A DNA stretch of 64,000 bases. It comes from Bacteroides ovatus (lineage in GTDB: Bacteria > Bacteroidota > Bacteroidia > Bacteroidales > Bacteroidaceae). A model generated the notes under the pieces. That model worked only from the letters and a program-made list of their open reading frames with translations, searched no databases and was not told the DNA's origin. The stretch spans positions 2,418,001 to 2,482,000 of the forward strand of contig NZ_CP012938.1 in NCBI RefSeq assembly GCF_001314995.1, written 5' to 3'. Positions within the stretch are counted from its first letter, which is position 1. Every line of letters begins with the position of its first letter. This document shows, piece after piece, positions 1-15,715 of the stretch. Both the position numbers and the translations under genes were made by a program.

Positions 1-467
1 GCTTTCACAGCCGATGTTTCATTCTCACCCGGAGTCATCGTCAAGGTGAACTTACCTTGCGTCAGCACCTCTTTCCACTCATAAGGATTGACAGCCAGAA
101 TAGCCTCACCATCGGCATCCATGTAATAAAGCACATAATTGTCATCTTCAGAGCCGCCTATCGTAACCGGGCTGCCCACCAGACTCTTACTCACTCCCAA
201 CATCACATATTCCTTACCGCTGTTCATAAAGTCTTCAAGCGTTTCCAAACTCTGCAACGGACTCATACACACATACACAATGCCATCCTGTTCAAAACAA
301 GACACCGATTGGGCTTGTATGGTCTTATCCTTATACGTGTACGTATTCACAGTTTCCACAGGTTCCGGCTCCGGTTCGGGATCAGTGGCCGGATCATCGT
401 CACTACATGCCACAAAACAACTCATTGCCAACATGAATAAGAAAAAGGAAATAAATCTAGTTTTCAT
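1..467 (-). CDS. lipoprotein of unknown function (C-terminus cut by window edge)
   Basis: The reading frame starts at ATG 465-467 and runs off the left edge with 155 codons visible. The first 21 residues form a type II signal peptide with a lipobox-like CFVAC before a run of Asp, followed by a short Pro/Glu linker of repeated PE units. I therefore infer an outer-membrane-anchored lipoprotein. No catalytic or binding motif is recognised in the visible part. It is the most distal visible gene of the left-pointing operon led by the invertible susC, 66 bp after the preceding lipoprotein gene, so it probably shares that promoter and on/off state. A surface accessory role beside SusC/SusD is an inference from position only. 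Confidence 0.7.
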   Translation of the reverse strand, partial: MKTRFISFFLFMLAMSCFVACSDDDPATDPEPEPEPVETVNTYTYKDKTIQAQSVSCFEQDGIVYVCMSPLQSLETLEDFMNSGKEYVMLGVSKSLVGSPVTIGGSEDDNYVLYYMDADGEAILAVNPYEWKEVLTQGKFTLTMTPGENETSAVK

Positions 468-533: not shown

Positions 534-1733
534 TTACTGCGGACGATAATCAAATACGGTAATAGGAGCATCCTGCGAATAAGTGGTACGTACATGATTC
601 GGGTGTTCCTTATCACAGTCAATAAAATCTATCGTCAGCGTGTGTTTGTCACCGTCGCGTGCCACAGTCATGGTTCCGCCGTCTATGCGTGCATATTCTT
701 TCATGGCTCCGTTCTGAAGTTTCTCATACCAGGTTCCTCCCGGATAAGTAAAGCCGTTAGGATAGCCCGAAGCTAGGTTTCCCGGTTTCAGCAACTCGCG
801 CGGGATACCATATGATTCCTTATCACGCGCCACCACCGTATAAGTACCTGCCGGAATACCCTGTGTTACATCCGTAGCCCATTCCACGAAAAATTCCACC
901 TTCAATACTCTTCCATTACCGGCCGGCCAAGTGTCGACAAGACTTATACTCTCTTCCGCCAGATAAAGCTCGACTACCCGGCACGACTCATCTTGCAGAT
1001 AATAAGAATCGCCCTTATCCTGCAGGCGGGCTTGCGTCCATCCATTCAGTGCAATATCGGTGGTCAGCGTAGAATTAGGAGTTTCATCCTTGCTTTCGTG
1101 ACGGTCGATGGTGATTACTTTTCCCGTATAGGTGAAATAACGTTTCAAGGAAAGATCGCCCACCAATGTTCCGCTAATCGAATATTCACCACCGGACAGC
1201 CGTTTCACCGTCATTTTACCACCGGAAAGCAAATCGGCATCGACACTCGTAGAGTAAGATTTCACATCACCGTAGAAAGTTCCGGCAGGAATATCCACCT
1301 TTCCGGTCGGGAGATCGATTTGATTCATATATCCGAGGTTGAATGTCCATTCATCAAACGTGTATCCGTTCAATGCTGCATCAAAAGTGCCTTCAGGGAG
1401 CGGAAATTCCGTAGCTTCCGAAGCAAATGGCGGGACATTCAGGCTGAACGCCATGATCTTGCCCGGTCCTATCGGATTACCAGTAGCATCTACTTCCATA
1501 TCCGTATAAAGCGTCAATACAAAATGATCTGTGCCCACTCCGTCTTTATCTCCCCAGTACACCAGGTTGGAGTTGACAAACTCCACCACTTCCGGCGCCG
1601 GGTTTACGTCTTCTCCACCGGGTTTTCCTCCCTCCGGATTTTCGGCGTCATTGTCACTGCAAGCGGTCAACACCCCCACAGACGCAACAGCGAACAGGCA
1701 GACACCCAATAACTTCATTATTTTCTTATCCAT
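534..1733 (-). CDS. surface-type lipoprotein of unknown function (399 aa)
   Basis: The protein begins with a basic, hydrophobic signal peptide ending in the lipobox LTAC (Cys at about residue 25), followed by an acidic and Gly/Pro-rich linker. That is typical of exported Bacteroides lipoproteins. The body contains two similar-looking beta-rich halves with 'PAGTFYG' and 'PAGTYTV' turns near residues 150 and 295, suggesting a duplicated beta-sandwich domain, but I cannot name the family. The gene lies 217 bp after the BACON lipoprotein gene in the same direction and is followed by another lipoprotein. By analogy with other SusC/SusD operons it may be a surface binding protein. This is inference; no catalytic motif is visible. 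Confidence 0.72.
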   Translation of the reverse strand: MDKKIMKLLGVCLFAVASVGVLTACSDNDAENPEGGKPGGEDVNPAPEVVEFVNSNLVYWGDKDGVGTDHFVLTLYTDMEVDATGNPIGPGKIMAFSLNVPPFASEATEFPLPEGTFDAALNGYTFDEWTFNLGYMNQIDLPTGKVDIPAGTFYGDVKSYSTSVDADLLSGGKMTVKRLSGGEYSISGTLVGDLSLKRYFTYTGKVITIDRHESKDETPNSTLTTDIALNGWTQARLQDKGDSYYLQDESCRVVELYLAEESISLVDTWPAGNGRVLKVEFFVEWATDVTQGIPAGTYTVVARDKESYGIPRELLKPGNLASGYPNGFTYPGGTWYEKLQNGAMKEYARIDGGTMTVARDGDKHTLTIDFIDCDKEHPNHVRTTYSQDAPITVFDYRPQ

Positions 1734-1950: not shown

Positions 1951-3144
1951 TTATCTGAAAAGTGCAATATCCGGGAAAAGGATACAATCTTTCAGTGTCC
2001 CGGTCAGGAACTGCTGTCCGTCAAACAATGCTATCGCCAGGTAGCATCCGCTTTCCGGTGCTCCGGTCACGTCCTGAAAACTGACTCCGACAGAACCGTC
2101 CTGATAAAGCACAGGAGCGAAACCGAAATTTCCTTTCGAATAAATATTGGAAGAAGCCGCTACAGAAAAGCCGTACAGGGTTTGCAAAACAACACCTGCC
2201 CCATCATCCGATGTTCCGTCCGATACTCCACCTGACGTTCCGTCCGAAGCGCCTTCTGCCACCTCATCCGCAACTTCTTCCACGACCGTAAAGTCTTTCT
2301 GTGCCGCACCGATAGGAACCACAAACGATCCATTTTCATAGGTAGCCTGCAATGAAATCGTAGCCTTTGCGGGGTCTTTCAGATATTGCGCTGCCGGAGT
2401 ATTTGCCAACGACATCTTAATGGTATATCCCTCGCCATCGACATTCTTCGAAATTTCAGTAGCCGACAAGGGATAGGCGTTTTCGATATTCTTCGTATCC
2501 CATTTCACATAAATCCGGCTATTTCCCCACACTCCAAGCAGGTCCGTCGCTTCATACTGGTAGACGTAGTAAAGGAACTTCCGCCCCTCATTGGTGCTGA
2601 CCAATAACTGGCAGGCACGGGGATTTCCGGTTTTGTTCTCTTTCAACACAAGCAAGAAACCATCTTCTTTTGAAGCAGCCGGCACCTCCACCCAGTCGAT
2701 TCCCCGCTGCACGCTCACTTTGAAATCAAACGAACTATTCACACGTACAATCGTCTGTGAAGGAGCATTTCCGAAGCGTATCACCTGCTGGTCGGAGTCG
2801 GGAGCAAAAATATTTCCCTCCTGCGTCACTACAATTTTCTGTTCGCTATTACCATCGCTCACGGTCACCTGCGTGGCACGTGACGTATATTCATAATTGG
2901 CTCTGGCAAGCAAAGTTATCTTTTCGTTTGTCACTTCGATTACCCTGCACCAGTCCGCACCCGAAACGGCAGTCAGTTCTCCGGTAGCCTGCAAAGCCAC
3001 TTCCACCGTTCCGCCTCCGGCTGCCAGATCGACGTCCGCATTCATGATGCGGAAGCCTTGTGCCGTTTCATCGTTTTCCTTGTCGCACGCTGTCATCAGC
3101 AAACAGCACGCAGATAATAACAGTATAACTAACTTATTCATCAT
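1951..3144 (-). CDS. BACON-domain lipoprotein
   Basis: A lipoprotein signal peptide with lipobox LMTAC (Cys 20) is followed by two BACON-like beta-sandwich repeats at about residues 31-110 and 118-200. Each shows the family pattern: a hydrophobic strand, 'V..G..WC/V' near the middle and a closing 'VTQEG' or 'YQYE' strand. BACON domains are common in Bacteroidetes surface proteins and are thought to bind glycans, mucin or host protein. Residues about 288-318 are an unusual low-complexity Glu/Ala then Ser/Asp/Gly-rich linker built on repeated 'SDGTS'. The gene starts 1 bp after the stop of the DUF4302 gene, so translation is probably coupled. It likely acts as a surface accessory of the SusC/SusD pair upstream. 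Confidence 0.8.
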   Translation of the reverse strand: MMNKLVILLLSACCLLMTACDKENDETAQGFRIMNADVDLAAGGGTVEVALQATGELTAVSGADWCRVIEVTNEKITLLARANYEYTSRATQVTVSDGNSEQKIVVTQEGNIFAPDSDQQVIRFGNAPSQTIVRVNSSFDFKVSVQRGIDWVEVPAASKEDGFLLVLKENKTGNPRACQLLVSTNEGRKFLYYVYQYEATDLLGVWGNSRIYVKWDTKNIENAYPLSATEISKNVDGEGYTIKMSLANTPAAQYLKDPAKATISLQATYENGSFVVPIGAAQKDFTVVEEVADEVAEGASDGTSGGVSDGTSDDGAGVVLQTLYGFSVAASSNIYSKGNFGFAPVLYQDGSVGVSFQDVTGAPESGCYLAIALFDGQQFLTGTLKDCILFPDIALFR

Positions 3145-3145
3145 A

Positions 3146-4456
3146 TCATTCTTCTATTGTTTTTTTAATCAACCTGATTGCTGCAACTGCATCCGTGTAT
3201 CCCATGAAAGAGGCCTCCTCATCCTGCGAGTCGTACACACCGAAGATAAATCCGGAGATTTCACCCATCCACACTCCATTGTCCACCAGATAAATGCCGT
3301 CGGTGGTAGGATAACTGATAAGACCGATTGCCGAACTGCGCAAAACATAATCATTCATCAAATCCCACATAGCCAGATACACGTAACCTCCCTGTACTTT
3401 CTTCAAAAATTGCGGCAAGATGGAAAGTCCGCCACGCGGCTTGTCATAAGTTACCAGAATGTCATATTCGAGTCCTTTGAGCCAATAGCTCTTGCCGTCC
3501 TCGTCCTTCACCAGTTGAATCTCCTGCGAAGCCACTTCCATCTGGTTCGTCGCATCGTTCAGACGATAAAAATCCATCTGGTAAGTGCCTGGATAATAGT
3601 CGTAACTTTGATACCCGGCAGTATAGACACCCGCCAGTTTCACCTCCGTAGCTCCTTCGTCGGTACAAACAAAGCTGATCTCCTCGTTCTTCCAGACAAA
3701 ATTCTGCATGGTTTGTCCGTCTATCGTCACCGGTTCGTGAAAACGCATTCCGTCGGTGGTAAACATAAAAGGTACGGTTTTCTGATGCACCTTTCCAACT
3801 TCGTCATAATAGGTCACAATGAACGTATAGTTGCTGCGTAGCATTTGCCCGGTGTAGAGTCCGTCCATCCGCAGGTCGTATTCATAAAAGAAAGCATCGT
3901 CTTCCACTTTCTTTATCCGGGTGAGATATTGCTTCCACGTCTGGTCGGCAGAAAAAGCCTTCATCACGATGCGGTTGCCATATTTCTTGCCTTTCAGTTC
4001 GATACGGTCGGCGGTGGCATCGGAGATCACGAATTCGTAGTCGCCTCCGAGCGTTCCGTTCGGGTCGTCGGCCATACTTCCCTGTGGTTGACCGAAATAA
4101 TGCACCAGATAATTGTAGGTATCGAAAGACAACATCGTTGCCTGCTCGGACTTGACGCTATAAAGCGAACTGACCGTCTCATCCGCTCCCGCTATCTGCG
4201 AAGCCATCGTCACCCGCTGGCCGTCGAACTTGCAAAGCAGGGTAATACCTCCCAGCGAGTAGTCCTTACCGACGTAATATTCCATCACCCATCCGTTGGG
4301 TGCTGCTTCCAGCAGTTCGCTGCAACGCTTCACATCGGCCGTGGCACGGTTGGCAGACGAATCGTCAAAATAATCTTCTTCCTGAAAGAGGCACGACTGC
4401 AAACCCAGGCAGACAAGGGCCAACAGGAAATATATCGTTCTATTTTTCTTCATCAT
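3146..4456 (-). CDS. DUF4302 domain lipoprotein
   Basis: This 436-residue protein has a signal peptide with lipobox LQSC (Cys 22), then 'EEDYFDDSSANRATADVKRCSELLEAAPNGWVMEYY', which is the hallmark opening of DUF4302 lipoproteins. The function of DUF4302 is not known; members sit next to SusC/SusD pairs and the substrate-import metallohydrolase, as here. No catalytic motif is visible. It is separated by 61 bp from the metallohydrolase gene upstream and nearly abuts the BACON gene downstream, so all are inferred to be one transcript controlled by the invertible promoter at the head of the operon. Confidence 0.85.
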   Translation of the reverse strand: MMKKNRTIYFLLALVCLGLQSCLFQEEDYFDDSSANRATADVKRCSELLEAAPNGWVMEYYVGKDYSLGGITLLCKFDGQRVTMASQIAGADETVSSLYSVKSEQATMLSFDTYNYLVHYFGQPQGSMADDPNGTLGGDYEFVISDATADRIELKGKKYGNRIVMKAFSADQTWKQYLTRIKKVEDDAFFYEYDLRMDGLYTGQMLRSNYTFIVTYYDEVGKVHQKTVPFMFTTDGMRFHEPVTIDGQTMQNFVWKNEEISFVCTDEGATEVKLAGVYTAGYQSYDYYPGTYQMDFYRLNDATNQMEVASQEIQLVKDEDGKSYWLKGLEYDILVTYDKPRGGLSILPQFLKKVQGGYVYLAMWDLMNDYVLRSSAIGLISYPTTDGIYLVDNGVWMGEISGFIFGVYDSQDEEASFMGYTDAVAAIRLIKKTIEE

Positions 4457-4517: not shown

Positions 4518-5429
4518 TTATTGAATAGTGCTCAAGTCAATTTCGGTAATCTCCTGCTGGCGGCGCAGCACGATTTTACGAAGTTCGTTGAGGTCGATCC
4601 CCCATGTGTCGCGCATATAGTTATAGACAATCGTGAATTTCTTGTTGATGATGGCAGCGCCCGATTCTCCGGCTGCCGTCATCATATTGTCCCAGTAGGC
4701 CTGCGTATGTGTGACGTACATGGCTATATTTTCCACAAAATCCTCGTTGGACTGGCTCATGGCATAAGCCGTCACGAAACCGTCGGACCAGGCCACATCG
4801 TCCGTGCGGGGCATGGCACCCTGGGCGGTCATGTAGTAATACCAGTCGGCTCCCACGTATTTTCCTTCCGAGATGCGGTTGAAAGAAGGGTCGAAATTCC
4901 GTTTCTGATGCAGGATATGGGCAAATTCATGATGCATCGTTTCAAAATAATACTCGTTGAGCTTTTCGATATTGATCTTCTTTATGTTGAGGTCGTTCAC
5001 GTTATAGAGGGTGATTTTCTTCCCGCCTTCTGCCGTGCCGAGCACCATGTTACCGCTACTTTCGTAGGCGGGCGATCCGATGAGGTGGAATGTCTTGGGT
5101 ACGTAGACACGGAGAAAATCCATTCCTGCCAGTTCGACGTAAGCGTCCATCCAGACGTGTTTGATGATTTTCGACAGTGCCACCGCTTTGTCATAGTCGG
5201 CGGGCACGAGGTTGTATTTATGATCGCTCTCGATATCCTTCATGCGGTACATGAAGTCGATGTTATAAGGATAGGTGTAGTTGTCGAGCAGCCAGTAATC
5301 GAAAGCATTTCTCTCCAGAGGTTCGGTAGAGAAGATGCTGTTCGCGGTGTCTATCTCGTCGTTATTGTTGCAAGCCCCCAGGCAGACTGTGGTGAGAGCA
5401 AGCAAAGAGTAAATGATCTGTTTCTTCAT
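4518..5429 (-). CDS. substrate-import-associated zinc metallohydrolase lipoprotein
   Basis: The protein has a lipoprotein signal (lipobox LGAC, about Cys 20) and a zincin-type HEFAH motif at about residue 167, where the two His and the Glu would bind zinc and activate water; a third ligand may come from the Glu/Asp-rich stretch after it. This architecture matches the family of metallohydrolase lipoproteins encoded beside SusC/SusD pairs (TIGR04549 type). The substrate of that family is unknown to me; cleavage of a peptide or protein cargo at the cell surface before SusC import is the usual idea. I chose ATG 5427-5429; a GTG nine bases upstream would add three residues. The gap to susD is 20 bp. 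Confidence 0.85.
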   Translation of the reverse strand: MKKQIIYSLLALTTVCLGACNNNDEIDTANSIFSTEPLERNAFDYWLLDNYTYPYNIDFMYRMKDIESDHKYNLVPADYDKAVALSKIIKHVWMDAYVELAGMDFLRVYVPKTFHLIGSPAYESSGNMVLGTAEGGKKITLYNVNDLNIKKINIEKLNEYYFETMHHEFAHILHQKRNFDPSFNRISEGKYVGADWYYYMTAQGAMPRTDDVAWSDGFVTAYAMSQSNEDFVENIAMYVTHTQAYWDNMMTAAGESGAAIINKKFTIVYNYMRDTWGIDLNELRKIVLRRQQEITEIDLSTIQ

Positions 5430-5449
5430 AATTTTCACTTTTTTCTCTG

Positions 5450-7003
5450 TTAGTTTCTTCTCGGGTTAGGTTGCATTCCCGCCACGATCACGTTTCGCGG
5501 AATCTGGATGGCACGGCGCAGGTCGTTCGGCGGCATTTCGTCGGTGACACGTTGAGTAGCCATGTTGCGACGGTAAATCATAATACCGTACCGTTTGATA
5601 TCGGGCCAGCGCATCCCCTCGTGCAGGGTAGTGACACGGCGTATGTGCAGAATACAGTGAAGAATATTTTCCTGCATCCCTTCCTCGATAGTGAAATCGG
5701 GAGCTAGCTGTTTCTTGGGCGTCTGTTGCGTGAAAGGCGTGTAGAAATTCATTTTATCATAATACGCATTGATCTGGTCGGGTGTCAGGGCCGATTTGTT
5801 GCGGGTGTAGGCACGTTGCCAGCTCGTGATGTCGGCAGCCGACTGGGGGTACATTTTCTTCAACGCGTATGCTTCGGCACGGCAAAGCAGGGTTTCGTCC
5901 GTTGAAAACAATACCGGCATATAATAAAGGTAGCCGCCATCATAAAGTCCGCTCTTGCGCAGGATGCTGGCTACAAATCCGGTGGTAGAGAAAGGTTTCA
6001 GATACAAATAATCCGAGCTGCCCCACAGTCCTGCAGAAAGACAGGTTTCGCTGGTGGCGAGCGTTTGGTTGTGGAAGTAACGCGGGCCTACCAGGTAGTC
6101 GCTTCCGAGTGCGCCCCAGTTGGAGACGGTGCTGCTTATCAGCAGGTTGGCCTCATTGGAAGAAGCAATATACGCATCTGCCTGCACATTTCCGTTCACG
6201 GAAAGATTGCTCAATGCTTCCCAGTCGCGGAGCAGGTCGTCGGGGTTGCTGCCCAACACACGGGTGGCAAAGTCAATCACCCGGTCGCAGTTGGAGAAAT
6301 CGGGTTTCATATAATAAAGGTAGAAACGGGCGGCAAAGGCATAGGCGGCCTTGCGGGTGAAATGGTATTTGGGGACGGAATATCCGTCGTCCGAAATCAG
6401 TTCCACTCCCTCCAGGAGGTCACGCTCCACTTTCCGGTACACTTCTTCCAGCGTGCCGCGCTCGTAACGGGGAGACACGGTGGTTTCCACGTCTTCCATA
6501 TAGGGGATTCCCAACGATTCGGAGGCATGAGTGTCATAAGCATTGCAGAAGATAGTTGCCAGCATGAAATGGCAGTAGGCACGGCACACCAGTGCTTCAC
6601 CGCGCTGCGGGTTGAGCGATGCCGGATTTCCTTTCTCCTCTATCGCCTTGAGTGCCATGTTGGCGGCTGAAATTGCACCGTAATAACCTCCCCAAAGGGA
6701 ATTGGGTGTGTCCTGATATTCCTCTTTGGTATCTTCCCAGTTGTAACATTCCTTTTCGGAAAGCTGGTAGTAACCGTAGGTGGGGCCGCTATCATCGGAG
6801 TTGTCGCTGTAGAGTTCGAACAGTTCGTTGGGCGATACGTCGGGATAGGCCGATACAAGCAGTTTGGCTATTTTCTGGTCGGTGTTCAGTTCCGTGCGGT
6901 TGTCCGGTGTTTTGTCCAGAAAATCATTGCAGGAAACGGTAGTCAGACCGGAAGCTGCGGTGAGCAGCAGCACAGGGAGTATATGGTTTATTTTCGTCTT
7001 CAT
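5450..7003 (-). CDS. SusD/RagB family outer-membrane nutrient-binding lipoprotein
   Basis: At 517 residues this is a normal SusD length. It carries a lipoprotein signal ending near 'TVSCNDFLDKTPDNRTELNT', the classic SusD opening. The N-terminal helical region includes 'GEALVCRAYCHFMLATIFCNAYDT', the TPR-like segment conserved in SusD/RagB proteins, and the C-terminus has 'RRVTTLHEGMRWPDIKRYGI', the usual SusD_RagB ending. SusD forms the lid over the SusC pore and captures substrate. The gene follows susC by 40 bp and is predicted to be silent in the orientation read here because the operon promoter points away. The substrate cannot be read from the sequence; the neighbouring metallohydrolase hints at a peptide-containing one. 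Confidence 0.92.
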   Translation of the reverse strand: MKTKINHILPVLLLTAASGLTTVSCNDFLDKTPDNRTELNTDQKIAKLLVSAYPDVSPNELFELYSDNSDDSGPTYGYYQLSEKECYNWEDTKEEYQDTPNSLWGGYYGAISAANMALKAIEEKGNPASLNPQRGEALVCRAYCHFMLATIFCNAYDTHASESLGIPYMEDVETTVSPRYERGTLEEVYRKVERDLLEGVELISDDGYSVPKYHFTRKAAYAFAARFYLYYMKPDFSNCDRVIDFATRVLGSNPDDLLRDWEALSNLSVNGNVQADAYIASSNEANLLISSTVSNWGALGSDYLVGPRYFHNQTLATSETCLSAGLWGSSDYLYLKPFSTTGFVASILRKSGLYDGGYLYYMPVLFSTDETLLCRAEAYALKKMYPQSAADITSWQRAYTRNKSALTPDQINAYYDKMNFYTPFTQQTPKKQLAPDFTIEEGMQENILHCILHIRRVTTLHEGMRWPDIKRYGIMIYRRNMATQRVTDEMPPNDLRRAIQIPRNVIVAGMQPNPRRN

Positions 7004-7043: not shown

Positions 7044-10000
7044 TCACAGTCCCAGACGCAGGGTGAGGGTAAACTGACGCGGAACGGGGGATGCCACCCC
7101 TCCGGTGTTCACAAATTCGGGGTCCTGCCCGTTCAACTTCTTGTCGGCGTAGATCAGGAAGAGGTTGGTAGCCTGCAACTTGAGCGACAGGTTGGATATT
7201 TTGGCAGGAGCGATCCAGCTTCTCGGGAACTCATACATCAGTGATATTTCTTTCATGCGGATAAAATCGCCTTTGGCGATGCGCTCCGTAGAATAGTTGT
7301 AGGCGTTGTAGGCAAGATAAAGCGATGTATTCGTCCTATATTGCGGGTCGCTAAGTATCACCGGGATATTCGTTCTCGCTTCGTCGCCGGAAACAGTCCA
7401 GCGGTTTTTGAATTCACGCGGCATGGCGGTAAGGTCGGAATATTTGTAGTTGAACACCGGGTTGAGGCGGACTACGTTGCCGAAAGAGTAAGTCATAAAG
7501 ACATTTAGTTTGAAGCCTTTATAGGTGAATACATTACCGAAACTTCCCGTGACGGTGGGATCGGTAGGACCTTCGTATTTCAGGTAATCCAGTTTTTCGC
7601 GTTCCTGGAAGTTGATGCTGGTGCTAGTCACTTTTCCGTCGATGAGGTATTGCGGAATACCGTCTTCATCAAGTCCCGCAAAAGGGATGGAGAAGAGTCC
7701 GCGCACGGGGTATCCTTCGCGGGCAAAGCCGTTGCCGGAAACGAGTTCCATCATACTTGTGAGTCCTTTCAGCTGGGTGACTTCGTTCTTGGCATAGGAG
7801 AAGATAAAGTCTGTGTTCCATGAAAAATCATTCGTGCGGATGTTGCGGGTGGAGAGCGTAAATTCCACACCGTGAGATTTCATGGTGGCTACGTTGGCAT
7901 ATTTGTTGATGACGCCGCCTACTCCCTGTGTGGGGACTACACCGATCAGGTCGTAGTTGTTACGCTGGTACCAGTCGGCGGAGAAGTTGATGCGATTTTC
8001 GAGCAGGCCGAGGTCGATGCCGATGTTCAGCTCATGCTTTTTCTCGTAAGTGAGTTCGCTGTTCTCGATGTCATCGATATAAAGTCCCGTTTCCTGAATG
8101 TCGGTAAAGGGGCGGTAGGGCGAGAAGCTGCGGATGATGGCTTGCGAGTTGGTCACTTCCGCCGGGCCGCGGTCGGCGGTGAGGGAGTATGAGGCTTTCA
8201 GTGTCAGGTTGGAAAGGGTGGGTTGCAGCGCTTTGAAGAAAGATTCTTCATGCACGTTCCAGGCACCGGACAGGTTCCATGTGGGTAGCCAGCGGGATGA
8301 ACGGCTGCGTCCCATGCGGTTGGTTCCTTCATAGCGGAAAGTGCCGTTGAGGGTGTAGCGTCCGTCGTAAGAATACGTGGCGTTGAAGAAGCTGGCTATA
8401 CTCCGGGTTTCGGAGTGTCCCAGGCTGTAATAGCGCGAACCGGATTCGATGCCGTTCTTGAAGAACTGGTAGATGTAGGACGGAATTTCCCCCATCGAAT
8501 ATTGCATTCCCCAGCCTTGGAAAGAGGAATATGTTTTTTGAAGGCTGTTCACTTCCATTCCGGCAAAGAAGTTGGCGATGTGCTTTTCGGCGAAAAGATG
8601 ATTCCATGAGAGTGTTCCACGGAAATCGAGTCCCAGCATACGGCGGTCCTGACGCTGGTAGATACCGCCTTCGGGCAGCAGGGTGATAGGCAGGGCGTAT
8701 GGGTTGTCGGGGTCGGTATAGAGCAATTTGTTTTGCTCGCGGATGGTGGCGTCGTCCATACCGGTGCGGTAGGCGATTGCCTGATTGGCGTCGTCGAGCA
8801 CGTTGTGTTCCTGCGATGAAGTCTGGTATCTAACGGCTCCGAGGGCACTCAATTCGAGTCCCTGAACCACTTTCCACTTCATCTCGCCTTGAAATTTCAC
8901 ATCGACCATATTGATTTCGATGTAGTTATTGTCGAGTTCGTGGAGAATATTGAATGGGGCGTAGTTGCTGATATAGTCCACAGAGGGGTCGAGTGTGCGG
9001 CTTGTGTTGAGCGCGTATGAATAAGGGTTGATGTCGAATCCGCGGGACATCTTTCCTGATGCGATGTCGAGGGTGGAGTTCATCGTTCCCGGCGCGTTCT
9101 GCTGGCGGTAGGAGGCGTTGGATATGAGGTTGAGCGACAGATTTTTATATATATTATAGGTTGTGTTCACATTGGCCGTATAGCGTTTCACCTTGCTCTG
9201 CTTGTACCAACCCGGATCAAGCATGGCACTCAAGGAGGCGTAGAAAGAGGATTTTTCCGTTCCGGCGGTGATGCTGACGGAATGGTTCTGCGAAACGGCA
9301 TTGGTGAAAAGCACGTCGAACCAGTCAGTGTTGCGCATTTCCGCTTCGCGGAGGTAAGCGTTACGGGCTTCGGTGGTGTTGAGCAGTCCGCGTTGGCCGT
9401 TACTGTTGTTGTATTCGTCGATGAGGCGGTACATACGACCGTACACTCCGGTGTCTCTGGTGCGGAAAAGGTCGGCACTGTTCAACCAGCCTTTCTGTTC
9501 CATTTCTTTGTAGATTCCCATCTGTTCCTGCGAATTCATGATATTGAATTCTTTGTAGCTGGGGATAGCACGGGTGGTGAACTCGCCCGTATAACTGATC
9601 TTGCTGACTCCGGCACGTCCTTTCTTAGTGGTGACTACGATAACGCCTGCCATCGCACGTGCACCGTAAATGGAGGTTGCCGAACCGTCTTTCAAAATTT
9701 GGAAACTCTCGATATCGTCGGAATTCAGTCCGGCTATGGCGGAACTAATCAGTGTCTCGGCATCACCGGAGGAAAGGTCATCGGGACCTACGTCGATGGC
9801 GTCTTCCAGAATCACGCCGTCAACAACCCACAATGGTTTGGAACTTCCGTAAATGGAAGTAGCTCCACGCACACGAATCTTGGGGGCAGTTCCAAAAGTG
9901 CCCGAAACATTCTGAACGGAAACTCCTGCCGCACGACCTTCCAGTCCGCGACTAATGTCGGGCAAACCGTCCAGCTTCACATTATCGGCATTTAATTGTT

Positions 10001-10169
10001 TGGTGGCTCCGGTAAAAAGACGTTTATCCATTTTCTGCATACCGGTCACTACCACTTCCTGTAATACTTCGGAATCGGATTTCATCATTACCTTGATGGT
10101 CCCGGACTTGATGGGAACATCCTGCGACTTCATGCCGACATAGGTGATTTGCAAAGTTCTTGATGAACT
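7044..10169 (-). CDS. SusC/RagA TonB-linked transporter, body separated from its N-terminus by DNA inversion
   Basis: This frame encodes everything in a SusC transporter from the end of the N-terminal carboxypeptidase-regulatory-like domain onward: 'SSSRTLQITYVGMKSQ', the TonB-box region and 'QEVVVTG', the plug with 'GLEGRAAGVSV', 'VRGATSIYGSSKPLWVVDG' and 'IYGARAMAGVIVVTTKKG', then the beta barrel ending in 'FTLTLRLGL'. It lacks a signal peptide. Upstream in frame there is only non-homologous AT-rich sequence back to a TTG near 10283. The missing 68 residues are on the + strand at 10744-10947, and the two pieces meet at a shared 16-bp inverted repeat. Inverting 10154-10963 gives one 1109-aa SusC in perfect frame. 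An ATG at 10170-10172 behind GGAAGGAGGGG could start a leaderless product in this orientation, but it could not be exported. Confidence 0.93.
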   Translation of the reverse strand, partial: SSSRTLQITYVGMKSQDVPIKSGTIKVMMKSDSEVLQEVVVTGMQKMDKRLFTGATKQLNADNVKLDGLPDISRGLEGRAAGVSVQNVSGTFGTAPKIRVRGATSIYGSSKPLWVVDGVILEDAIDVGPDDLSSGDAETLISSAIAGLNSDDIESFQILKDGSATSIYGARAMAGVIVVTTKKGRAGVSKISYTGEFTTRAIPSYKEFNIMNSQEQMGIYKEMEQKGWLNSADLFRTRDTGVYGRMYRLIDEYNNSNGQRGLLNTTEARNAYLREAEMRNTDWFDVLFTNAVSQNHSVSITAGTEKSSFYASLSAMLDPGWYKQSKVKRYTANVNTTYNIYKNLSLNLISNASYRQQNAPGTMNSTLDIASGKMSRGFDINPYSYALNTSRTLDPSVDYISNYAPFNILHELDNNYIEINMVDVKFQGEMKWKVVQGLELSALGAVRYQTSSQEHNVLDDANQAIAYRTGMDDATIREQNKLLYTDPDNPYALPITLLPEGGIYQRQDRRMLGLDFRGTLSWNHLFAEKHIANFFAGMEVNSLQKTYSSFQGWGMQYSMGEIPSYIYQFFKNGIESGSRYYSLGHSETRSIASFFNATYSYDGRYTLNGTFRYEGTNRMGRSRSSRWLPTWNLSGAWNVHEESFFKALQPTLSNLTLKASYSLTADRGPAEVTNSQAIIRSFSPYRPFTDIQETGLYIDDIENSELTYEKKHELNIGIDLGLLENRINFSADWYQRNNYDLIGVVPTQGVGGVINKYANVATMKSHGVEFTLSTRNIRTNDFSWNTDFIFSYAKNEVTQLKGLTSMMELVSGNGFAREGYPVRGLFSIPFAGLDEDGIPQYLIDGKVTSTSINFQEREKLDYLKYEGPTDPTVTGSFGNVFTYKGFKLNVFMTYSFGNVVRLNPVFNYKYSDLTAMPREFKNRWTVSGDEARTNIPVILSDPQYRTNTSLYLAYNAYNYSTERIAKGDFIRMKEISLMYEFPRSWIAPAKISNLSLKLQATNLFLIYADKKLNGQDPEFVNTGGVASPVPRQFTLTLRLGL
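10154..10169 (-). repeat. inverted repeat, left recombination site of the susC switch
   Basis: On the minus strand this reads AGTTCATCAAGAACTT, identical to the + strand at 10948-10963. The core has dyad symmetry, AGTTC-N5-GAACT, as expected for a site-specific recombinase. It lies inside the susC coding frame (codons for Ser-Ser-Ser-Arg-Thr), so recombination here joins coding sequence to coding sequence without changing the frame. Confidence 0.9.
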
Positions 10170-10666
10170 CATGCATTTTCTGCCCCTCCTTCCATAAGTG
10201 CTTGAGCACAAAATATTTAATAAATATAAAAAAGAAAATACAGAAAGGGGAATAAGAAAAGCAAAAAAGGAAGTGAAACGCAAAATAAATCGTCCTTTTT
10301 TGCTTTTTATCTACTTACTGAAAAGGTAGAAAATATCTTTCATGTAGCAAACTTCAAGTCCGGCAGCAACTCTCGTCTCCCCAATTAGGGTATTAATATA
10401 AGAGACTACGGATAGAATTTCTTTCTTTGTCCAATAAACTATCTTTTTTCTACCTGCAATTATTTATTTGCAGATTATTATGTGTTATTAAACATCTTAT
10501 CTACGAATTTATCCACATTTATTTATCAAAAAGATACTTATTTTCGTTTATTAATCACCAAAAAGAAATAAGAAACCGCCTTTCATGTACTTATCTTGTA
10601 TTTAAGTCCTTTTGCTACAAGTATTTTGTATCGACAGCACAAATTCATATTTTTTTCATATTTTTC

Positions 10667-10696
10667 TTTGTTTTTCTAAAAAAGTGGTTACTTTTG
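10667..10696 (+). promoter_or_regulatory. promoter of the invertible susC operon
   Basis: TTTG at 10667-10670, 18 bp, then TACTTTTG at 10689-10696 fits the Bacteroides vegetative promoter (TTTG, 18-21 bp, TAnnTTTG). The start codon follows 47 bp later. It lies inside the invertible segment and here points away from the body of the operon. Confidence 0.7.
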
Positions 10697-10743
10697 CGAA
10701 TCGTAAGATAGCAAAACAGACTATTCTACTATATAAAAACTAT

Positions 10744-10968
10744 ATGAAAAGAAAACTAACGCTGTTATTAACCTGCCTGCTAGCAGGCATTAGCCTGGCA
10801 ATCGCTCAAACCTCCAGAAAGGTAATGGGCGTTGTCTTCTCCGAGGAAGACAACCAGCCCGTCATAGGAGCATCCGTTTTAGTTAAAGGTACATCTATAG
10901 GAACCACCACCGACCTCGATGGAAAGTTCGTTATCAATAATGTACCAAGTTCATCAAGAACTTGGTAA
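10744..10968 (+). CDS. detached N-terminus of the invertible SusC (signal peptide and first domain)
   Basis: ATG 10744 begins a Lys/Arg-rich, hydrophobic signal peptide ending at SLAIAQ (about residue 22). It is followed by 'VMGVVFSEEDNQPVIGASVLVKGTSIGTTTDLDGKFVINNVP', the first part of the carboxypeptidase-regulatory-like domain found at the N-terminus of every SusC. The domain is cut before its last strand: after the 16-bp repeat the frame reads Trp-stop (TAA 10966-10968), giving a 74-aa product. The missing strand, 'LQITYVGMKSQ', is exactly what begins the minus-strand body at the other repeat. On its own this would be a secreted fragment without transport function. The transcript, if it continues, would run antisense into the convergent gene at 10987-11457. 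Confidence 0.92.
   Translation: MKRKLTLLLTCLLAGISLAIAQTSRKVMGVVFSEEDNQPVIGASVLVKGTSIGTTTDLDGKFVINNVPSSSRTW
10948..10963 (+). repeat. inverted repeat, right recombination site of the susC switch
   Basis: The sequence AGTTCATCAAGAACTT is the exact inverse of 10154-10169. At this site the dyad extends to CCAAGTTC-N5-GAACTTGG (10945-10965), a perfect 8-bp-arm palindrome with a 5-bp spacer, whereas the left site keeps only the inner part. The 5-bp spacer ATCAA is asymmetric, which would give the site a direction and favour inversion over other outcomes. Confidence 0.88.
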
Positions 10969-10986: not shown

Positions 10987-11457
10987 CTATTTTCCATCTT
11001 TTTTCTTCACCTTTCCTTCCTTTTCACCAGTCTCCAGGAACAGTGTTTTATCGTCATGAAACTGAATATCTATACGAATATGATGACTATCATCAACTGT
11101 ATAGCCTACATCCGCAGAATCTCCTAGAAAAAGCTTCAGAATCCAGCACAACACCTCCGGAATATTGACAATAATCGTTGCCTTTCCAATCACACAAGAG
11201 AAAAAATTAAAGATAGTTGTCCAATTTGGTATAGGACTCCGACCGTCGAAATTACACCTGTACACACGCCCCACGGACGAACGCGAACAATCCGAATTCT
11301 TTTCAACATATTTTTCTGGAATATTATTCAGTTGCCCCAACTTAAAAACACAATCAATTACTTTCTTCTTAACATCATCGTCGCTGTGACGTACACCGGT
11401 CATTTCTTTCTGACCATTTTCACTGTTAAAAACCACTTCTCTTTCTACCTTAGTCAT
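10987..11457 (-). CDS. hypothetical protein (156 aa)
   Basis: This ORF, ATG 11455-11457, has ordinary coding composition and an AT-rich A-run upstream as usual for Bacteroides starts. I do not recognise it. There is no signal peptide. It has a basic/acidic N-terminal half with several Cys, a hydrophobic segment around residues 85-115 ('TIFNFFSCVIGKATIIVNIPEVLCWILKLFLG') that could be buried core or membrane-associated, and a Lys-rich tail ('EGKVKKKDGK'). It sits 24 bp beyond the right recombination site and converges with the truncated susC start. Whether it belongs to the switch or to the phage-like module to its right is unclear. Confidence 0.45.
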   Translation of the reverse strand: MTKVEREVVFNSENGQKEMTGVRHSDDDVKKKVIDCVFKLGQLNNIPEKYVEKNSDCSRSSVGRVYRCNFDGRSPIPNWTTIFNFFSCVIGKATIIVNIPEVLCWILKLFLGDSADVGYTVDDSHHIRIDIQFHDDKTLFLETGEKEGKVKKKDGK

Positions 11458-11814: not shown

Positions 11815-12177
11815 ATGACTGAAACTGAAAAAAATCATTCCTTCCAACGGGTACAGCTAATGAAGCAAGCTGCCGTCATCCGGCAAAACAACGGTATGAA
11901 CCGGCACGATGCACTCGTCACGGCTCACCGGATAGGGGCTCTCATCCGGCAGATGCATCACGGAAATGTCTGTTTCCGCTACACCAAACAGGATGGAACC
12001 ATCCGACATGCCACCGGCACCCTCACCGGATATGAACATAGTTTCCACCGTCCGTATCTACCCAAACCGGAAAATACGTTCGTTGTCTACTATGATATCG
12101 AAGCCAAAGGCTGGCGCACCTTTCACGCTGAAAATTTTCTGGATATCGAAACGGACGGGCAAGACAGCAACAAGTAA
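11815..12177 (+). CDS. SH3 beta-barrel fold protein (WYL_2/DUF2693-like)
   Basis: ATG 11815 is chosen over an upstream TTG because the region before it looks like leader sequence. The 120-residue product has a helical N-terminal half ('RVQLMKQAAVIRQNNGMNRHDALVTAHRIGALIRQM') and a C-terminal half with 'VCFRYTKQDGTIRHATGTLTGYEHSF', the pattern of the small SH3-like WYL_2 proteins found in Bacteroides phages and mobile regions. The function is not established; a nucleic-acid-binding or regulatory role is inference. It is the first gene of a right-pointing module with the small ORF at 12180, the HNH endonuclease, an amidase and a DUF4373 protein. Confidence 0.7.
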   Translation: MTETEKNHSFQRVQLMKQAAVIRQNNGMNRHDALVTAHRIGALIRQMHHGNVCFRYTKQDGTIRHATGTLTGYEHSFHRPYLPKPENTFVVYYDIEAKGWRTFHAENFLDIETDGQDSNK

Positions 12178-12179
12178 AA

Positions 12180-12410
12180 ATGAATCTGCAAAAGAACGGA
12201 ATGAACGGGCAGGAACGAAAAGAATGGGAGGCGCTTTGCAGACAGTATAACGTAGATTCGCTATACGAGGCCATTCAAGGCTGCCGGGAAGAACTGGAGT
12301 TTCTGATTCATTGTGCCGAACGGCTCGAACCTCATACGGAGGAGGAGGAAGAAACGCCGTTTAACACATACAGACCACAGCGTTTCTCCGCACCAGAAAG
12401 CGCCGTTTAA
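12180..12410 (+). CDS. small acidic hypothetical protein (76 aa)
   Basis: The gene starts 2 bp after the stop of the SH3-barrel gene, so it is likely translationally coupled. The product is Glu-rich with a helical middle ('ALCRQYNVDSLYEAIQGCREELEFLIHCAERLE') and a run of five Glu near residue 55. The last 20 codons fall in a stretch where GCCGTTT and CGTTTCTCC motifs recur three to four times (12351-12435), so the C-terminus may have been altered by local duplication. The function is unknown. Small proteins of this kind are common in phage-like modules. Confidence 0.5.
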   Translation: MNLQKNGMNGQERKEWEALCRQYNVDSLYEAIQGCREELEFLIHCAERLEPHTEEEEETPFNTYRPQRFSAPESAV

Positions 12411-12435
12411 CAGATGGAGGAAACGCCGTTTCTCC
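12351..12435. repeat. degenerate local repeats around AAACGCCGTTT
   Basis: GAAACGCCGTTTAACA (12351), AGCGCCGTTTAACAGA (12399) and GGAAACGCCGTTTCTCC (12419) share a core, and CGTTTCTCCGCA (12381) resembles CGTTTCTCCCCGCA (12427). They span the end of the small ORF and the gap after it. The core AAACGCCGTTT is nearly palindromic. The cause may be slippage or a protein-binding site; neither can be shown. Confidence 0.4.
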
Positions 12436-12503
12436 CCGCATGATTCAGAAAAACGATTATTTTTTAACAGAGTATAATTTTATTAACATTATCAATATCA
12501 AGT

Positions 12504-13265
12504 ATGGAAAATTGGAGATTTATTGAAGAAAACCCCGACTATATGATTTCAGATCACGGACGGGTATTGAGTTTCAAGGGCAGATCAAAGTTGATCCTTT
12601 GTGCCAAAATCATGGGGACCGGTTACGAAACTGTCATACTGCCGAATAAAGGTGTTTGTATCGAATACAAAATTCATCGTTTGGTTGCCAAAGCATTCAT
12701 CCCCAACCCGGAGCAGCTGCCACAGATTAACCACCTCGATGGCAATACGATGAACAACCACGTGTCAAACCTCGAATGGTGCGATGCATACACCAATATG
12801 ATGCACGCCATCCGGACGGGATTACGACGTACGGGAGTGGGATCTCATCAAACACCTTTCGCCGTTACGGATGCAACGGGGAAAGTATTGCGTGCCTACC
12901 CGTCTATGAAAGAAATGGTCAGAGAGGAACGTCTGAAGCCTGCGCACCGAAACTGGCTTATCCTCCAACTAAAGCATCCGGACCGCGTGAAACAACACGC
13001 CTTGCGTGTGCAACATCATCGGGGAGATGCTTTTATTATGGTTCAGACAAGGCCTAACCAGACCACAGTGCTTAATCGGACGACAATACCTAATCGGCCC
13101 ACCATGCCTAATCAAACGACAACGCCGCCGATGGATGCTCCCTTCTCTCCGGTGCTCCATTCAGTAACAAAGCAATATTACCGCCAACTGTCCAAAGAGG
13201 AGGCTATTGCGTTCGGGGTTATCTCACGTGCCGTCTGCAAACAGGAAAGGAGGATTCTGCCATGA
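12504..13265 (+). CDS. NUMOD4/HNH homing-type endonuclease
   Basis: The N-terminus 'ENWRFIEENPDYMISDHGRVLSFKG' is a NUMOD4 motif (residues about 2-30), a DNA-binding element of phage and intron-type endonucleases. It is followed by 'IHRLVAKAFIPNPEQLPQINHLDGNTMNNHVSNLEWC' (about 53-92), an HNH_3 domain with the expected His and Asn residues. The enzyme should nick or cut DNA. The C-terminal 70 residues are unusual: an 18-bp unit repeated four times encodes PNQTTV/LNRTTI/PNRPTM/PNQTTT. The gene overlaps the amidase gene by 4 bp (ATGA), which argues for one transcript. The module resembles genes carried by Bacteroides phages and mobile islands. Confidence 0.85.
   Translation: MENWRFIEENPDYMISDHGRVLSFKGRSKLILCAKIMGTGYETVILPNKGVCIEYKIHRLVAKAFIPNPEQLPQINHLDGNTMNNHVSNLEWCDAYTNMMHAIRTGLRRTGVGSHQTPFAVTDATGKVLRAYPSMKEMVREERLKPAHRNWLILQLKHPDRVKQHALRVQHHRGDAFIMVQTRPNQTTVLNRTTIPNRPTMPNQTTTPPMDAPFSPVLHSVTKQYYRQLSKEEAIAFGVISRAVCKQERRILP
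13053..13124 (+). repeat. 18-bp tandem repeat, four degenerate copies, inside the HNH gene
   Basis: Units begin at 13053, 13071, 13089 and 13107 with consensus CCTAATCGGACGACAATA. They encode six-residue Pro/Leu-Asn-Gln/Arg-Thr/Pro-Thr units. Because the unit is a multiple of three, copy-number change would keep the frame and change linker length. Confidence 0.75.
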
Positions 13266-13705
13266 AAGACACGATCATCATCCACTGTTCCGCCACTCGT
13301 GCGGGACAGGATTTTACCGCTACCGACATCGACCGCTGGCATCGTCAACGTGGTTTTCGTTCTATCGGTTATCATTTCGTCATCCGTCTCGACGGTACGA
13401 TAGAACCGGGAAGAGATGTTGCTCTCGACGGAGCGCATTGTACAGGTTGGAACCATCGGTCTATCGGCATCTGCTACATTGGCGGATTGGACAGGAACGG
13501 CCGGCCTGCCGACACACGAACGGAAGCGCAACGTGAAGCGCTCGTCCGGCTGGTAGAAGATTTGCGCCTTGTCTTCCCTTCTCTGAAGCAGGTGATAGGG
13601 CATCGGGACACCAGTCCTGACCTCAATGGAGACGGCATTATCTCACCTGACGAGTATATAAAATCCTGCCCCTGCTTCGATGTAAAAGCAGAATTTATTC
13701 AGTAA
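13262..13705 (+). CDS. N-acetylmuramoyl-L-alanine amidase (PGRP/amidase_2 type)
   Basis: This 147-residue enzyme should cleave the bond between MurNAc and L-Ala in peptidoglycan. The zinc ligands of the amidase_2 fold are visible: His 8 in 'IIIHCSAT', the His of 'GAHCTGWN' (about residue 60) and the distal HRD ('QVIGHRDTSPDLNGDG', about 121). 'FRSIGYHFVIRLDGTIEPGR' is the conserved substrate-groove segment. There is no signal peptide, which fits a phage endolysin-type enzyme or an injected effector better than a cell-wall housekeeping enzyme. It overlaps the HNH gene start to stop. Such stand-alone amidases are frequent in Bacteroides phage-derived gene sets. Confidence 0.9.
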   Translation: MKDTIIIHCSATRAGQDFTATDIDRWHRQRGFRSIGYHFVIRLDGTIEPGRDVALDGAHCTGWNHRSIGICYIGGLDRNGRPADTRTEAQREALVRLVEDLRLVFPSLKQVIGHRDTSPDLNGDGIISPDEYIKSCPCFDVKAEFIQ

Positions 13706-13738
13706 TAATCAACCATTTACAACCAGCATTTTATCATC

Positions 13739-14731
13739 ATGGCCCGCATTTCCAAACCCGGATTAGATTATTTCCCCCTCGATGTCAATTTTCTGCAGGA
13801 CAGAAAAGTACGCCGCATCTCCTGTCGCCACCACGCGGCAGGGATTGCCGCACTCACTTCGCTGCTCTGCCTCATCTATAAAGAAAAAGGTTATTATATT
13901 TTGTGGAACAAAGACACTCTTTTCGACATCGCCCAGGAAGCGTGTTGCGGGGAGGAGGAAATGCAGGCCATCATTGATGATTGCCTGTCAGTGGGGCTGT
14001 TCGATGATCTTATATATAAGGAGTATGGCGTACTGACTTCACAGGCGATTCAGGAACAATATCATAAAATCATCACCGACAGCCGGAGAAAATATAAATT
14101 ACCCCTGGAACATTTCTGGATTATCAAGGAGGAGAGTAGTGAAATAGAACCGGAAAATACGGATGACTCCGGCAAAGATGTTACAAAACCCCATGAATTT
14201 GCTACAACAATGCCACAAACAAAAGAAGAAACGGATACAGATATCAAAGGTAAACAGGAAAGGAATATGGAAAATGAAATCAAACCTGAAATAAAAAAAG
14301 ACATAGAGACAGAGAGGGAAGGAAAAGACGGAAAGGAGAATGAGAGGAGCATGCCGCCCGTTCCGTCAAACAGCGTTTTTCAGGCTTCGCCTGTCGTTGT
14401 AGAGGGTTTGTCTTTGGATAAATCGATTGGAAAAGAAACGGTTTCGGAAGGGATGCAAGCGGGAGGAGGCTCGGAAGCTATACTTCTACTTAATATGCAA
14501 ACTATCGGCATCCGGAACGAACAGACCGTAAAAGCGATTGTCGCCCTTGCCCGACGTAAAGAATTGGGAGGCCCCGGCGGTATTTTATGGAAAATTCTTA
14601 GTTCCCAATACCGCCCTACCCTACTCAAAAAGAATGAACCGGGTGATTACATTCTTTGGGCACTCAATCATCCGACGGAATTTGAAAACACCTACAACGG
14701 GACACTGAAAAAGCTAATCAGGGGAAGATAA
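13739..14731 (+). CDS. DUF4373 (Lin1244/Lin1753-like) domain protein
   Basis: The N-terminal 110 residues ('KPGLDYFPLDVNFLQDRKVRRISCRHHAAGIAALTSLLCLIYKEKGYYILWNKDTLFDIAQ') match the DUF4373 domain, which resembles the N-terminal domain of phage replication initiators. A charged Lys/Glu-rich linker (about 125-210) follows, then a short helical C-terminal domain ('RNEQTVKAIVALARRKELGGPGGILWKILSS'). I infer a role in replication of a phage or mobile element, possibly remnant here because no primase, helicase or integrase is next to it. It ends the right-pointing module, 33 bp after the amidase. Confidence 0.8.
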   Translation: MARISKPGLDYFPLDVNFLQDRKVRRISCRHHAAGIAALTSLLCLIYKEKGYYILWNKDTLFDIAQEACCGEEEMQAIIDDCLSVGLFDDLIYKEYGVLTSQAIQEQYHKIITDSRRKYKLPLEHFWIIKEESSEIEPENTDDSGKDVTKPHEFATTMPQTKEETDTDIKGKQERNMENEIKPEIKKDIETEREGKDGKENERSMPPVPSNSVFQASPVVVEGLSLDKSIGKETVSEGMQAGGGSEAILLLNMQTIGIRNEQTVKAIVALARRKELGGPGGILWKILSSQYRPTLLKKNEPGDYILWALNHPTEFENTYNGTLKKLIRGR

Positions 14732-14805
14732 AGCGGAAAAGTCTGCCTATAAACAAGGAACCTTTTATTTTTACTGCAAAAGGGATGGAAAACCAAGAAT
14801 TATCG

Positions 14806-14813
14806 TACCTTTG
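14806..14813 (+). promoter_or_regulatory. possible -7 element of the Rpn gene
   Basis: TACCTTTG fits TAnnTTTG and lies 80 bp before the chosen start. No convincing TTTG at the proper distance is seen, so this is a weak call. Confidence 0.35.
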
Positions 14814-14893
14814 TAGTACGAAGAAAAAGCCTCTTTTTTATGTATAAAGAGAAACGTCTCTTTGCAAAACATAAAAAGAAGCGACCCAAAACA

Positions 14894-15715
14894 ATGAGTA
14901 AATTTATCAATCCGTTCACCGACTACGGATTCAAACTAATATTCGGCAGAGAAGTGTCTAAGGATTTACTAATCGAATTTCTGAACGACCTGCTCGAAGG
15001 TGAACGAGTGATAACGGACTTACAGTTTTTGAATAATGAGCAATTGCCGCTCTATCCGGAAGGACGAGGTATTATCTATGATGTATATTGCACCACGGAC
15101 ACAGGCGAAAAAATCATCGTTGAAATGCAGAACCGTATGCAAAGCAACTTCAAAGAACGCTCGATTTATTATTTATCGCGTGCCATCATCAATCAAGGAA
15201 GGGTAGGCAATGAATGGAAGTTTGAAATAAAAGCCGTATACGGAGTTTTCTTGATGAATTTCATTATCGACAAGAACATAAAACTCCGCACAGATGTTAT
15301 TCTAAGTGACAGGGAAACAGGAGAACTCTTCTCGGATAAGTTCCGGGAAATCTTTATCGCCCTCCCTCTCTTCAACAAAAACGAAGAGGAATGCGAAACG
15401 AATTTTGAACGTTGGATTTATATATTAAATAATATGGAAACTTTAAAACGCATGCCGTTCAAGGCACGAAAAGCTGTCTTCGAGAAATTGGAAGATATCG
15501 CTGATGTGGCTTCTATGTCTCCGGAAGACAGGGAGCGATACGACAATAGCGTCAAAGTGTACCGAGATTATTTGGTGACAATGGATGCAGCTGAACAAAA
15601 AGGTGCACAAGAAACCCAGCTGAAAATAGCCCGGAACATGAAAGCCAAAGGGATAGACAATGAGTCTATCGCCGAATGTACCGATTTACCTTTAAGCATA
15701 ATCGAAGGGTTATAA
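14894..15715 (+). CDS. Rpn family PD-(D/E)XK nuclease / putative transposase
   Basis: I start at ATG 14894, where the family's usual opening 'MSKFINPFTDYGFKLIFG' begins; an upstream ATG at 14840 adds 18 basic residues. Catalytic residues of the PD-(D/E)XK fold are visible: Asp in 'GIIYDVYCTTDTGEKIIVEMQNR', with the Glu and Gln of 'VEMQ' (about residues 60-82). Rpn proteins have DNase activity and promote RecA-independent recombination; some copies act in phage defence. The C-terminus carries 'ARNMKAKGIDNESIAECTDLPLSIIEGL', the short helical tail typical of Bacteroides members. It is a single gene, followed by a terminator hairpin shared with the convergent TetR gene. Confidence 0.88.
   Translation: MSKFINPFTDYGFKLIFGREVSKDLLIEFLNDLLEGERVITDLQFLNNEQLPLYPEGRGIIYDVYCTTDTGEKIIVEMQNRMQSNFKERSIYYLSRAIINQGRVGNEWKFEIKAVYGVFLMNFIIDKNIKLRTDVILSDRETGELFSDKFREIFIALPLFNKNEEECETNFERWIYILNNMETLKRMPFKARKAVFEKLEDIADVASMSPEDRERYDNSVKVYRDYLVTMDAAEQKGAQETQLKIARNMKAKGIDNESIAECTDLPLSIIEGL

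Follow-up and report, generated by a model that had tools for sequence, protein, structure and literature searches.

The stretch of DNA analysed here (64,000 nucleotides of Bacteroides ovatus, positions 2,418,001 to 2,482,000 of contig NZ_CP012938.1 in assembly GCF_001314995.1; hereafter the window) carries a susC gene that is split in two by a putative invertible segment. A long body, with the Plug domain, lies on the minus strand, and a short head with its promoter lies on the plus strand and points away from the body (Table 1). The two parts break at the same 16-bp sequence, which is present as an exact inverted repeat. The gene product was recognised as a SusC/RagA TonB-dependent transporter by its CarbopepD_reg_2 head, its Plug domain and its homology to 8ypu, 8ypt, 5t3r and RagA 6sli, and profile matches identified the target of the switch as a SusC/SusD operon.

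Scripted inversion of the segment produced a single open susC frame of 1,109 codons plus stop, containing ...NNVPSSSRTLQITYVG.... Before the flip, residues 28-71 of the head cover positions 2-45 of the 88 in the CarbopepD_reg_2 profile (49.4 bits); in the rejoined gene the match extends over positions 2-88 (75.7 bits). The crossover falls after codon 68, the last codon of the head before the right arm, and the arms correspond to codons 69-74 of the joined gene. The promoter, which faces the ATG of the head, is located between the inverted arms, yet the crossover takes place inside the coding sequence, unlike in a simple invertible promoter. Intragenic DNA inversions with a crossover within the coding sequence, as in the window switch, were reportedly described by Chanin in 2024. 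The layout and the rejoining agree with an earlier note on the same sequence, which had proposed a split susC with exact 16-bp arms, an in-frame rejoining to a 1109-aa (amino acid) protein with a completed N-terminal domain, and a switch with its promoter captured in the OFF state: the repeat was located, and every detail of the description that was tested held.

No further exact copies of the arm were found in the window in a scan allowing up to 3 mismatches, and the 15-bp arm core occurs exactly twice in the 6,472,489-bp single-contig genome. With two sites and one body, the switch differs from a shufflon, which has more than one alternative body or more than two sites, as in G013, at 2.85 Mb of this genome (G000) and in G017. 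The right arm and its flanks (10943-10967) form a 25-base hairpin, TACCAAGTTC-ATCAA-GAACTTGGTA, that exceeds the shared arm. No consensus promoter facing the OFF body was detected inside the segment, and no phage gene was recognised in it, the short open reading frames (ORFs) of the segment not having been searched. An in-frame ATG at 10170-10172 (minus strand), preceded by a GGAGG-like stretch, lies directly before the arm in the OFF orientation. The body could in principle start at this ATG if it were transcribed, which would give a protein without a signal peptide.

Table 1 Features at the split susC locus (window coordinates)
Feature	Position	Strand
Start of a 597-aa gene continuing left of the window (L243:12675-14468), without Pfam match	1..467	-
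399-aa gene, without Pfam match	534..1733	-
BACON-domain protein	1951..3144	-
DUF4302 / DUF4987 protein	3146..4456	-
Putative zinc metallopeptidase (Peptidase_Mx1)	4518..5438	-
susD (SusD-like_3)	5450..7003	-
susC body, 1041 codons plus stop, Plug domain, without signal peptide in the OFF orientation	7044..10169	-
Putative invertible segment, 810 bp, OFF orientation	10154..10963	.
Left inverted arm AAGTTCTTGATGAACT, in the susC body frame	10154..10169	+
Bacteroides-type promoter TTTG-N18-TACTTTTG, pointing away from the susC body	10667..10696	+
susC head: signal peptide (judged from sequence) and half of CarbopepD_reg_2; stop just beyond the right arm	10744..10968	+
Right inverted arm, exact complement of the left arm, in the susC head frame	10948..10963	-

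In the mechanism that we propose, a recombinase encoded elsewhere in this genome (G000:C1:2850841-2852010) would bind the two arms, each a pseudo-palindromic AGTTC-N5-GAACT, and invert the DNA between them. In the OFF orientation, the promoter and the signal-peptide head point away from the body, the head would yield only a 74-aa stub, and the body has neither a promoter of this consensus nor an export signal. In the ON orientation, promoter and leader, together with the signal peptide and half the N-terminal domain, would be joined in frame to the remainder of SusC, and the promoter could read on into susD, the Mx1 peptidase gene and the genes beyond. We consider it likely that the segment works as a phase switch, turning a SusC/SusD import operon ON or OFF by site-specific inversion through this recombinase, which is encoded some 422 kb away. 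Expression would be expected to follow orientation, and the role of the operon in import is a prediction.

The seven genes that had been assigned to one putative operon in the earlier note are indeed all on the same strand, the last one running past the left edge of the window. To the right of the switch, a 156-aa ORF without Pfam match is located at 10987-11457 (minus strand). The switch promoter would run antisense into this ORF in the OFF state. A homologue with 56 % identity lies at the equivalent place in B. xylanisolvens XB1A, and no homologue was found in the 11 other stretches that were compared. Further to the right (11857-15715), genes with WYL_2, HNH/NUMOD4-like (below cut-off), Amidase_2, Lin1244_N and PDDEXK_2 transposase matches were found; for the four genes from 12504 onward, XB1A has homologues in matching order, that of the last gene being partial.

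The same layout was searched for in genome sets with one genome per species, the genus set consisting of 158 genomes. With the susC body as query, 79 named loci were obtained, and matches with E up to 1e-150 occurred in 55 of the 158 genomes. The state of the switch was examined in the 79 named loci (5 of them at a contig edge), in 29 loci with 1.5-kb flanks and in further fetched stretches, that is, in a part of the body matches. Among the 74 named relatives away from contig edges, six carry at the equivalent codons a 17-mer within one mismatch of AAGTTCTNNNAGAACTT, and each of the six is accompanied within 0.3-3 kb by an inverted partner that agrees at 15 or more of 17 positions. A partner of 16-17 was present in four of the other 68 relatives (the shufflon-type loci L047, L051 and L053, and L099, an inverted duplication), while the remaining 64 reach 10-13. 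Control 17-mers taken 150-900 bp downstream gave maxima of 10-15 per locus, L099 excepted. A chance repeat was rejected as an explanation on the basis of these comparisons. The motif AAGTTCTNNNAGAACTT is present in 29 of the 158 genus genomes and its reversed control in 4.

Altogether, 13 OFF loci were found in 11 genomes: the window locus, XB1A, two each in G059 and G014, and one each in G087, G151, G098, G004, G095, G013 (B. faecis) and G008 (B. congonensis). At each of them a scripted flip joins a complete signal-peptide head in frame to the body, at the same codons, P-S-(S/T)-(A/S/V)-(R/S)-T. The paired arms agree at 16-17 of 17 positions in all 13, although the arm centres vary between loci, and a consensus promoter faces the body after the flip in 12, the exception being L233 of G151. 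In each of the 12 related stretches that were tested, two of which, L219 and L041, overlap, a switch body is followed by homologues of susD, Peptidase_Mx1 and DUF4302; in G014 this gene set was seen behind the first switch only, the second one reaching the end of the stretch. The earlier note had regarded this type of switch as less usual, a view corrected by the presence of at least 13 such OFF loci and by a crossover at codons shared with susC shufflons of known type. As for the joined form, which it had proposed to look for in relatives, B. acidifaciens and G005 both have it at the corresponding position, with arms of 15 of 17; at the exact orthologue, the one close relative found, XB1A, is OFF. 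Of the single switches whose state was set by flip or open frame, 13 of 15 are thus OFF, and six promoter invertons that were examined (two in this genome, two in XB1A, one in G027 and one in G017) all face away from susC. As some of these are one and the same locus in related species, the OFF bias is a pattern and not a count of independent events; the bodies of G151 and G098 are near-copies, as are those of G014, G059 and G004, so that the loci are not all independent.

Two loci deserve separate mention. In G013, one invertible head with its promoter serves two divergent susC bodies (L219:5074-11870), so that one body would be ON while the other is OFF. In a single case, L091, the contig of a metagenome-assembled genome starts exactly on the first base of an arm, as expected of an assembly graph split by two orientations.

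The earlier note had placed the recombinase elsewhere in the genome, and a candidate was indeed found at the distance given above. It is a 390-aa tyrosine recombinase with Arm-DNA-bind_5, SAM_5 and Phage_integrase domains, matches to which occur in 95 of the 158 genus genomes. A susC head lies within 1.5 kb of the recombinase at 25 of the 30 loci listed (five have no head there), and 22 of these 25 have a site within 3 mismatches of AAGTTCTGCAAAGACTT. The enzyme occurs in susC shufflons that cross over at codons equivalent to those of the window switch. An orthologue with 74 % identity is located at 714,226 of G017, which we take to be B. fragilis NCTC 9343; its neighbourhood there contains four sites and four susC bodies. 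The position of BF0667 in B. fragilis YCH46, judged by its gene number, agrees with the G017 enzyme being the Tsr0667 orthologue, and the 390-aa recombinase is probably an orthologue of Tsr0667 as well. Tsr0667-controlled SusC/SusD inversions in YCH46 were reportedly described by Nakayama-Imaohji in 2009, with a site consensus said to be AGTYYYN4GDACT; each arm of the window switch fits this consensus in one direction. We propose the 390-aa recombinase as the remote invertase of the window switch, which would act in trans. The motif and the recombinase co-occur, the latter being present in 27 of the 29 motif-positive and 68 of the 129 motif-negative genomes (Fisher p 3.5e-5). The candidate invertase gene is present twice in G048 (L218) and in G023; in both genomes the copies have equal match scores and opposite orientations. 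Those of G048 are separated by about 11 kb, and those of G023 lie on C1, at 30 kb and at 5.17 Mb.

Besides the window switch, four more pairs of inverted sites are located at susC genes in the same genome. The degenerate AGTTC-N5-GAACT core was found at 12 genome places and its reversed control at 10, so that the number alone is uninformative. Six of the 12 sites form three inverted pairs with matching centres, including the window pair. The other two, at 752,825/753,115 (290 bp apart) and 2,756,824/2,757,144 (320 bp apart), are promoter invertons directly upstream of a susC-susD pair; their TAnnTTTG boxes point away from susC, and both are thus OFF. A relaxed site search, the matches of which were no rarer than those of the control, contained a second split susC and a shufflon pair among the matches listed. 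The second split susC has near-motif, near-identical sites at 2,519,555/2,520,110 and a body about 29 % identical to the window body (L244:7553-11083 = G000:C1:2519552-2523082); its state was judged as OFF by layout, without a scripted flip, and would add one more OFF. The shufflon pair (2,850,176/2,852,883) flanks a head cassette and the 390-aa recombinase between two susC bodies. In addition, identical 15-bp sites were observed in inverted orientation 37 kb apart, at L245:7724 and L246:6601 (G000:C1:365723 and 402600). One is located in a 467-aa transporter-like ORF, the other immediately precedes a truncated Sugar_tr frame of 154 aa, and each is followed by a similar ORF (MDFKKLA...) and a susC. 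This pair is possibly a large shufflon that exchanges operon tails.

The origin of the head was addressed with a quick tree of 91 bodies, made without bootstrap and with L099 excluded from the switch label. The window and XB1A bodies form one branch within a set of seven, the others (L036, L057, L037, L038 and L039) having a longer susC frame of about 1,200 aa. An STN domain is present in the L036 protein. At L036, L057 and L037, the loci checked for this, susC is preceded by genes for ECF sigma and FecR. Identity between the window protein and L036 is 59 % over the 45 residues before the junction, 44 % over the next 40 and 86 % over the body, compared with 73, 70 and 66 % in the same segments for the switch locus L061. 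A single breakpoint fits best near residue 105, immediately ahead of EVVVTG: to its left, 41 sites favour L061 and 10 L036, while to its right 34 favour L061 and 235 L036. It seems that a complete switch head replaced the signalling, sigma/FecR-type SusC head, with the exchange point some 36 residues past the inversion junction; the direction is that of parsimony in the quick tree, and the breakpoint comes from site counts.

That the segment is a real and very probably live phase switch has to be weighed against several other explanations. It could be a fossil, in which a single flip was followed by fixation of OFF and death of the operon, as the OFF state of both this genome and XB1A and the excess of OFF over ON among the single switches would allow. 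The two halves nevertheless show purifying selection in comparison with the XB1A copy, with a ratio of nonsynonymous to synonymous substitution rates (dN/dS) of 0.11 for the head (67 codons, synonymous divergence dS 0.51) and 0.024 for the body (1041 codons, dS 0.79). The joined form must therefore occur often enough for selection to act on it, though both genomes are OFF. Since the bodies at all 13 loci also lack internal stops, the heads are open after the flip and the arms have remained alike, a fossil is highly improbable. An inversion introduced by the assembler into a truly continuous susC is hardly credible: a mixed population can, as is generally known, assemble in either orientation, but such an inversion would still reflect reads of the OFF orientation, and other assemblies show the same OFF layout. 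By origin, the switch might be what is left of a susC shufflon after the loss of its second body, still flipping with one useful partner; this origin, which is compatible with a live switch, seems rather unlikely. Shufflons cross over at the same codons and G013 has two bodies on one head, whereas in the first 18 kb of the window no second body was seen to the right of 10963, and the head was apparently joined to a body most closely related to those of the sigma/FecR type.

Inversion of a real switch by another recombinase, for instance the nearest one, of about 315 aa, at G000:C1:2381300 (L034 family), is improbable. The genome has 37 Phage_integrase-family matches; the distance between L034 and the switch is about 46 kb, and the L034 family is also common in motif-positive genomes. 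This family was, however, beside no intragenic susC switch when 30 of the 37 recombinases were used as queries against the loci examined, whose flanks were of up to 6 kb, the sole relative met (about 31 % identical) being in L099, itself a gene duplication; the 390-aa enzyme, in contrast, resides inside susC shufflons with a crossover at equivalent codons. Ten of the tyrosine recombinases of about 315 aa gave general Xer/integrase NCBIfam matches only, below cut-off. A number of observations nonetheless weigh against a live switch served by the 390-aa enzyme. The control family L034 is present in 26 of the 29 motif-positive genomes (counted by eye), about as common as the recombinase, so that the co-occurrence with the motif is not discriminating, and the proposed invertase is not based on it. 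When the window arm and its neighbouring base are read as a 17-mer, 4 of the 17 positions deviate from the shufflon site linked to the recombinase (comparison by eye), for which reason action in trans is put forward here as a proposal. Three resolvase-family matches accompany those of the integrase family. XB1A, the only close orthologue found, is likewise OFF; the window locus is thus seen in one orientation, and inversion in this strain is a prediction from the assembled sequence. With their imperfect arms, the two ON examples may be locked. No inverted partner was found in the fetched stretches of the truncated bodies L229 (G032), L231 (G086) and L232 (G077), which may be silent shufflon bodies or decayed and were left out of the switch count. 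An intact susC with a one-mismatch site, L139 (G038), located near a broken copy of the candidate recombinase, had no partner within the 1.5 kb examined and was not counted either.

Several known systems resemble the window switch; they are summarised here from the available parts of the cited papers. Three SusC/SusD shufflons and nine further regions are under the control of Tsr0667 (PMC4747536; the system is also treated in PMC11852207). This system is similar in its tyrosine invertase, its dispersed sites served in trans, its SusC/SusD targets and the orthologue-like enzyme in this genome. It is described as shufflons at three clusters, with nine other regions that may or may not include single-body intragenic ON/OFF switches like that of the window. 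We take the window switch to be a member of the Tsr0667 kind. In the region EE shufflon of B. fragilis NCTC 9343, the inverted repeats overlap the start of ragA/susC homologues (PMC5729914). Inversion at the susC start there likewise brings outer-membrane genes to one promoter, but chooses among several alternative bodies, while the outcome for the one body in the window is ON or OFF. The B. fragilis invertible promoters under the control of Mpi and Tsr19 have a master invertase and a TAnnTTTG box (PMC4747536); these are promoter inversions, in contrast to the crossover after codon 68 inside the window gene. Inverton group 131 of hCom2 is the largest Bacteroidota group and is enriched near TonB receptor and RagB/SusD genes; its members change orientation in mice and in culture, and no invertase group was linked to it (PMC11892184). 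Identity of its site with that of the window switch, which is likewise found at TonB receptor/SusD genes, is a lead only. In B. cellulosilyticus DSM 14838, one member occupies 137,243-137,908, close in coordinates to the split susC of G098 (C1: about 136,850-137,545); sameness of the two loci is again only a lead, and the text appears to assign exopolysaccharide genes to this inverton (PMC11892184). Orientation differences within or near SusC/SusD systems have been described in inflammatory bowel disease (PMC10939037), recombination hotspots at TonB receptors in nanopore reads of B. xylanisolvens (PMC8042965), and a comparable OFF bias for BT1927, expressed by about 1 in 1,000 cells in rich medium (PMC12548429). 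The literature search revealed no description of the window locus, which the supplementary tables of PMC11892184 and PMC10939037 may list. Mechanism and target class are known; as far as the search reached, the locus, the spread of the switch and the apparent head replacement are new.

In conclusion, the results connect one proposed invertase, in a way that can be tested, with several transporter operons of a gut Bacteroides whose genome is a single contig, and they provide a candidate enzyme for the susC-associated invertons that, in the part of the 2025 survey that was available, were linked to no invertase group (PMC11892184). As such operons are mostly OFF in the genomes examined, their susC genes may go unnoticed, annotated as truncated. 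We tentatively suggest, as a possibility that could well turn out otherwise, that promoter, signal peptide and N-terminal domain together make up an interchangeable regulatory head of susC in Bacteroides, that an operon sensed in related species through STN, ECF sigma and FecR was given an invertible head, and that one conserved invertase coordinates a genome-wide set with OFF as default. If so, a head swap would turn induced expression into a stochastic choice between ON and OFF, and the head-swap pattern suggests that closely similar importers may be run either by sensing or by chance.
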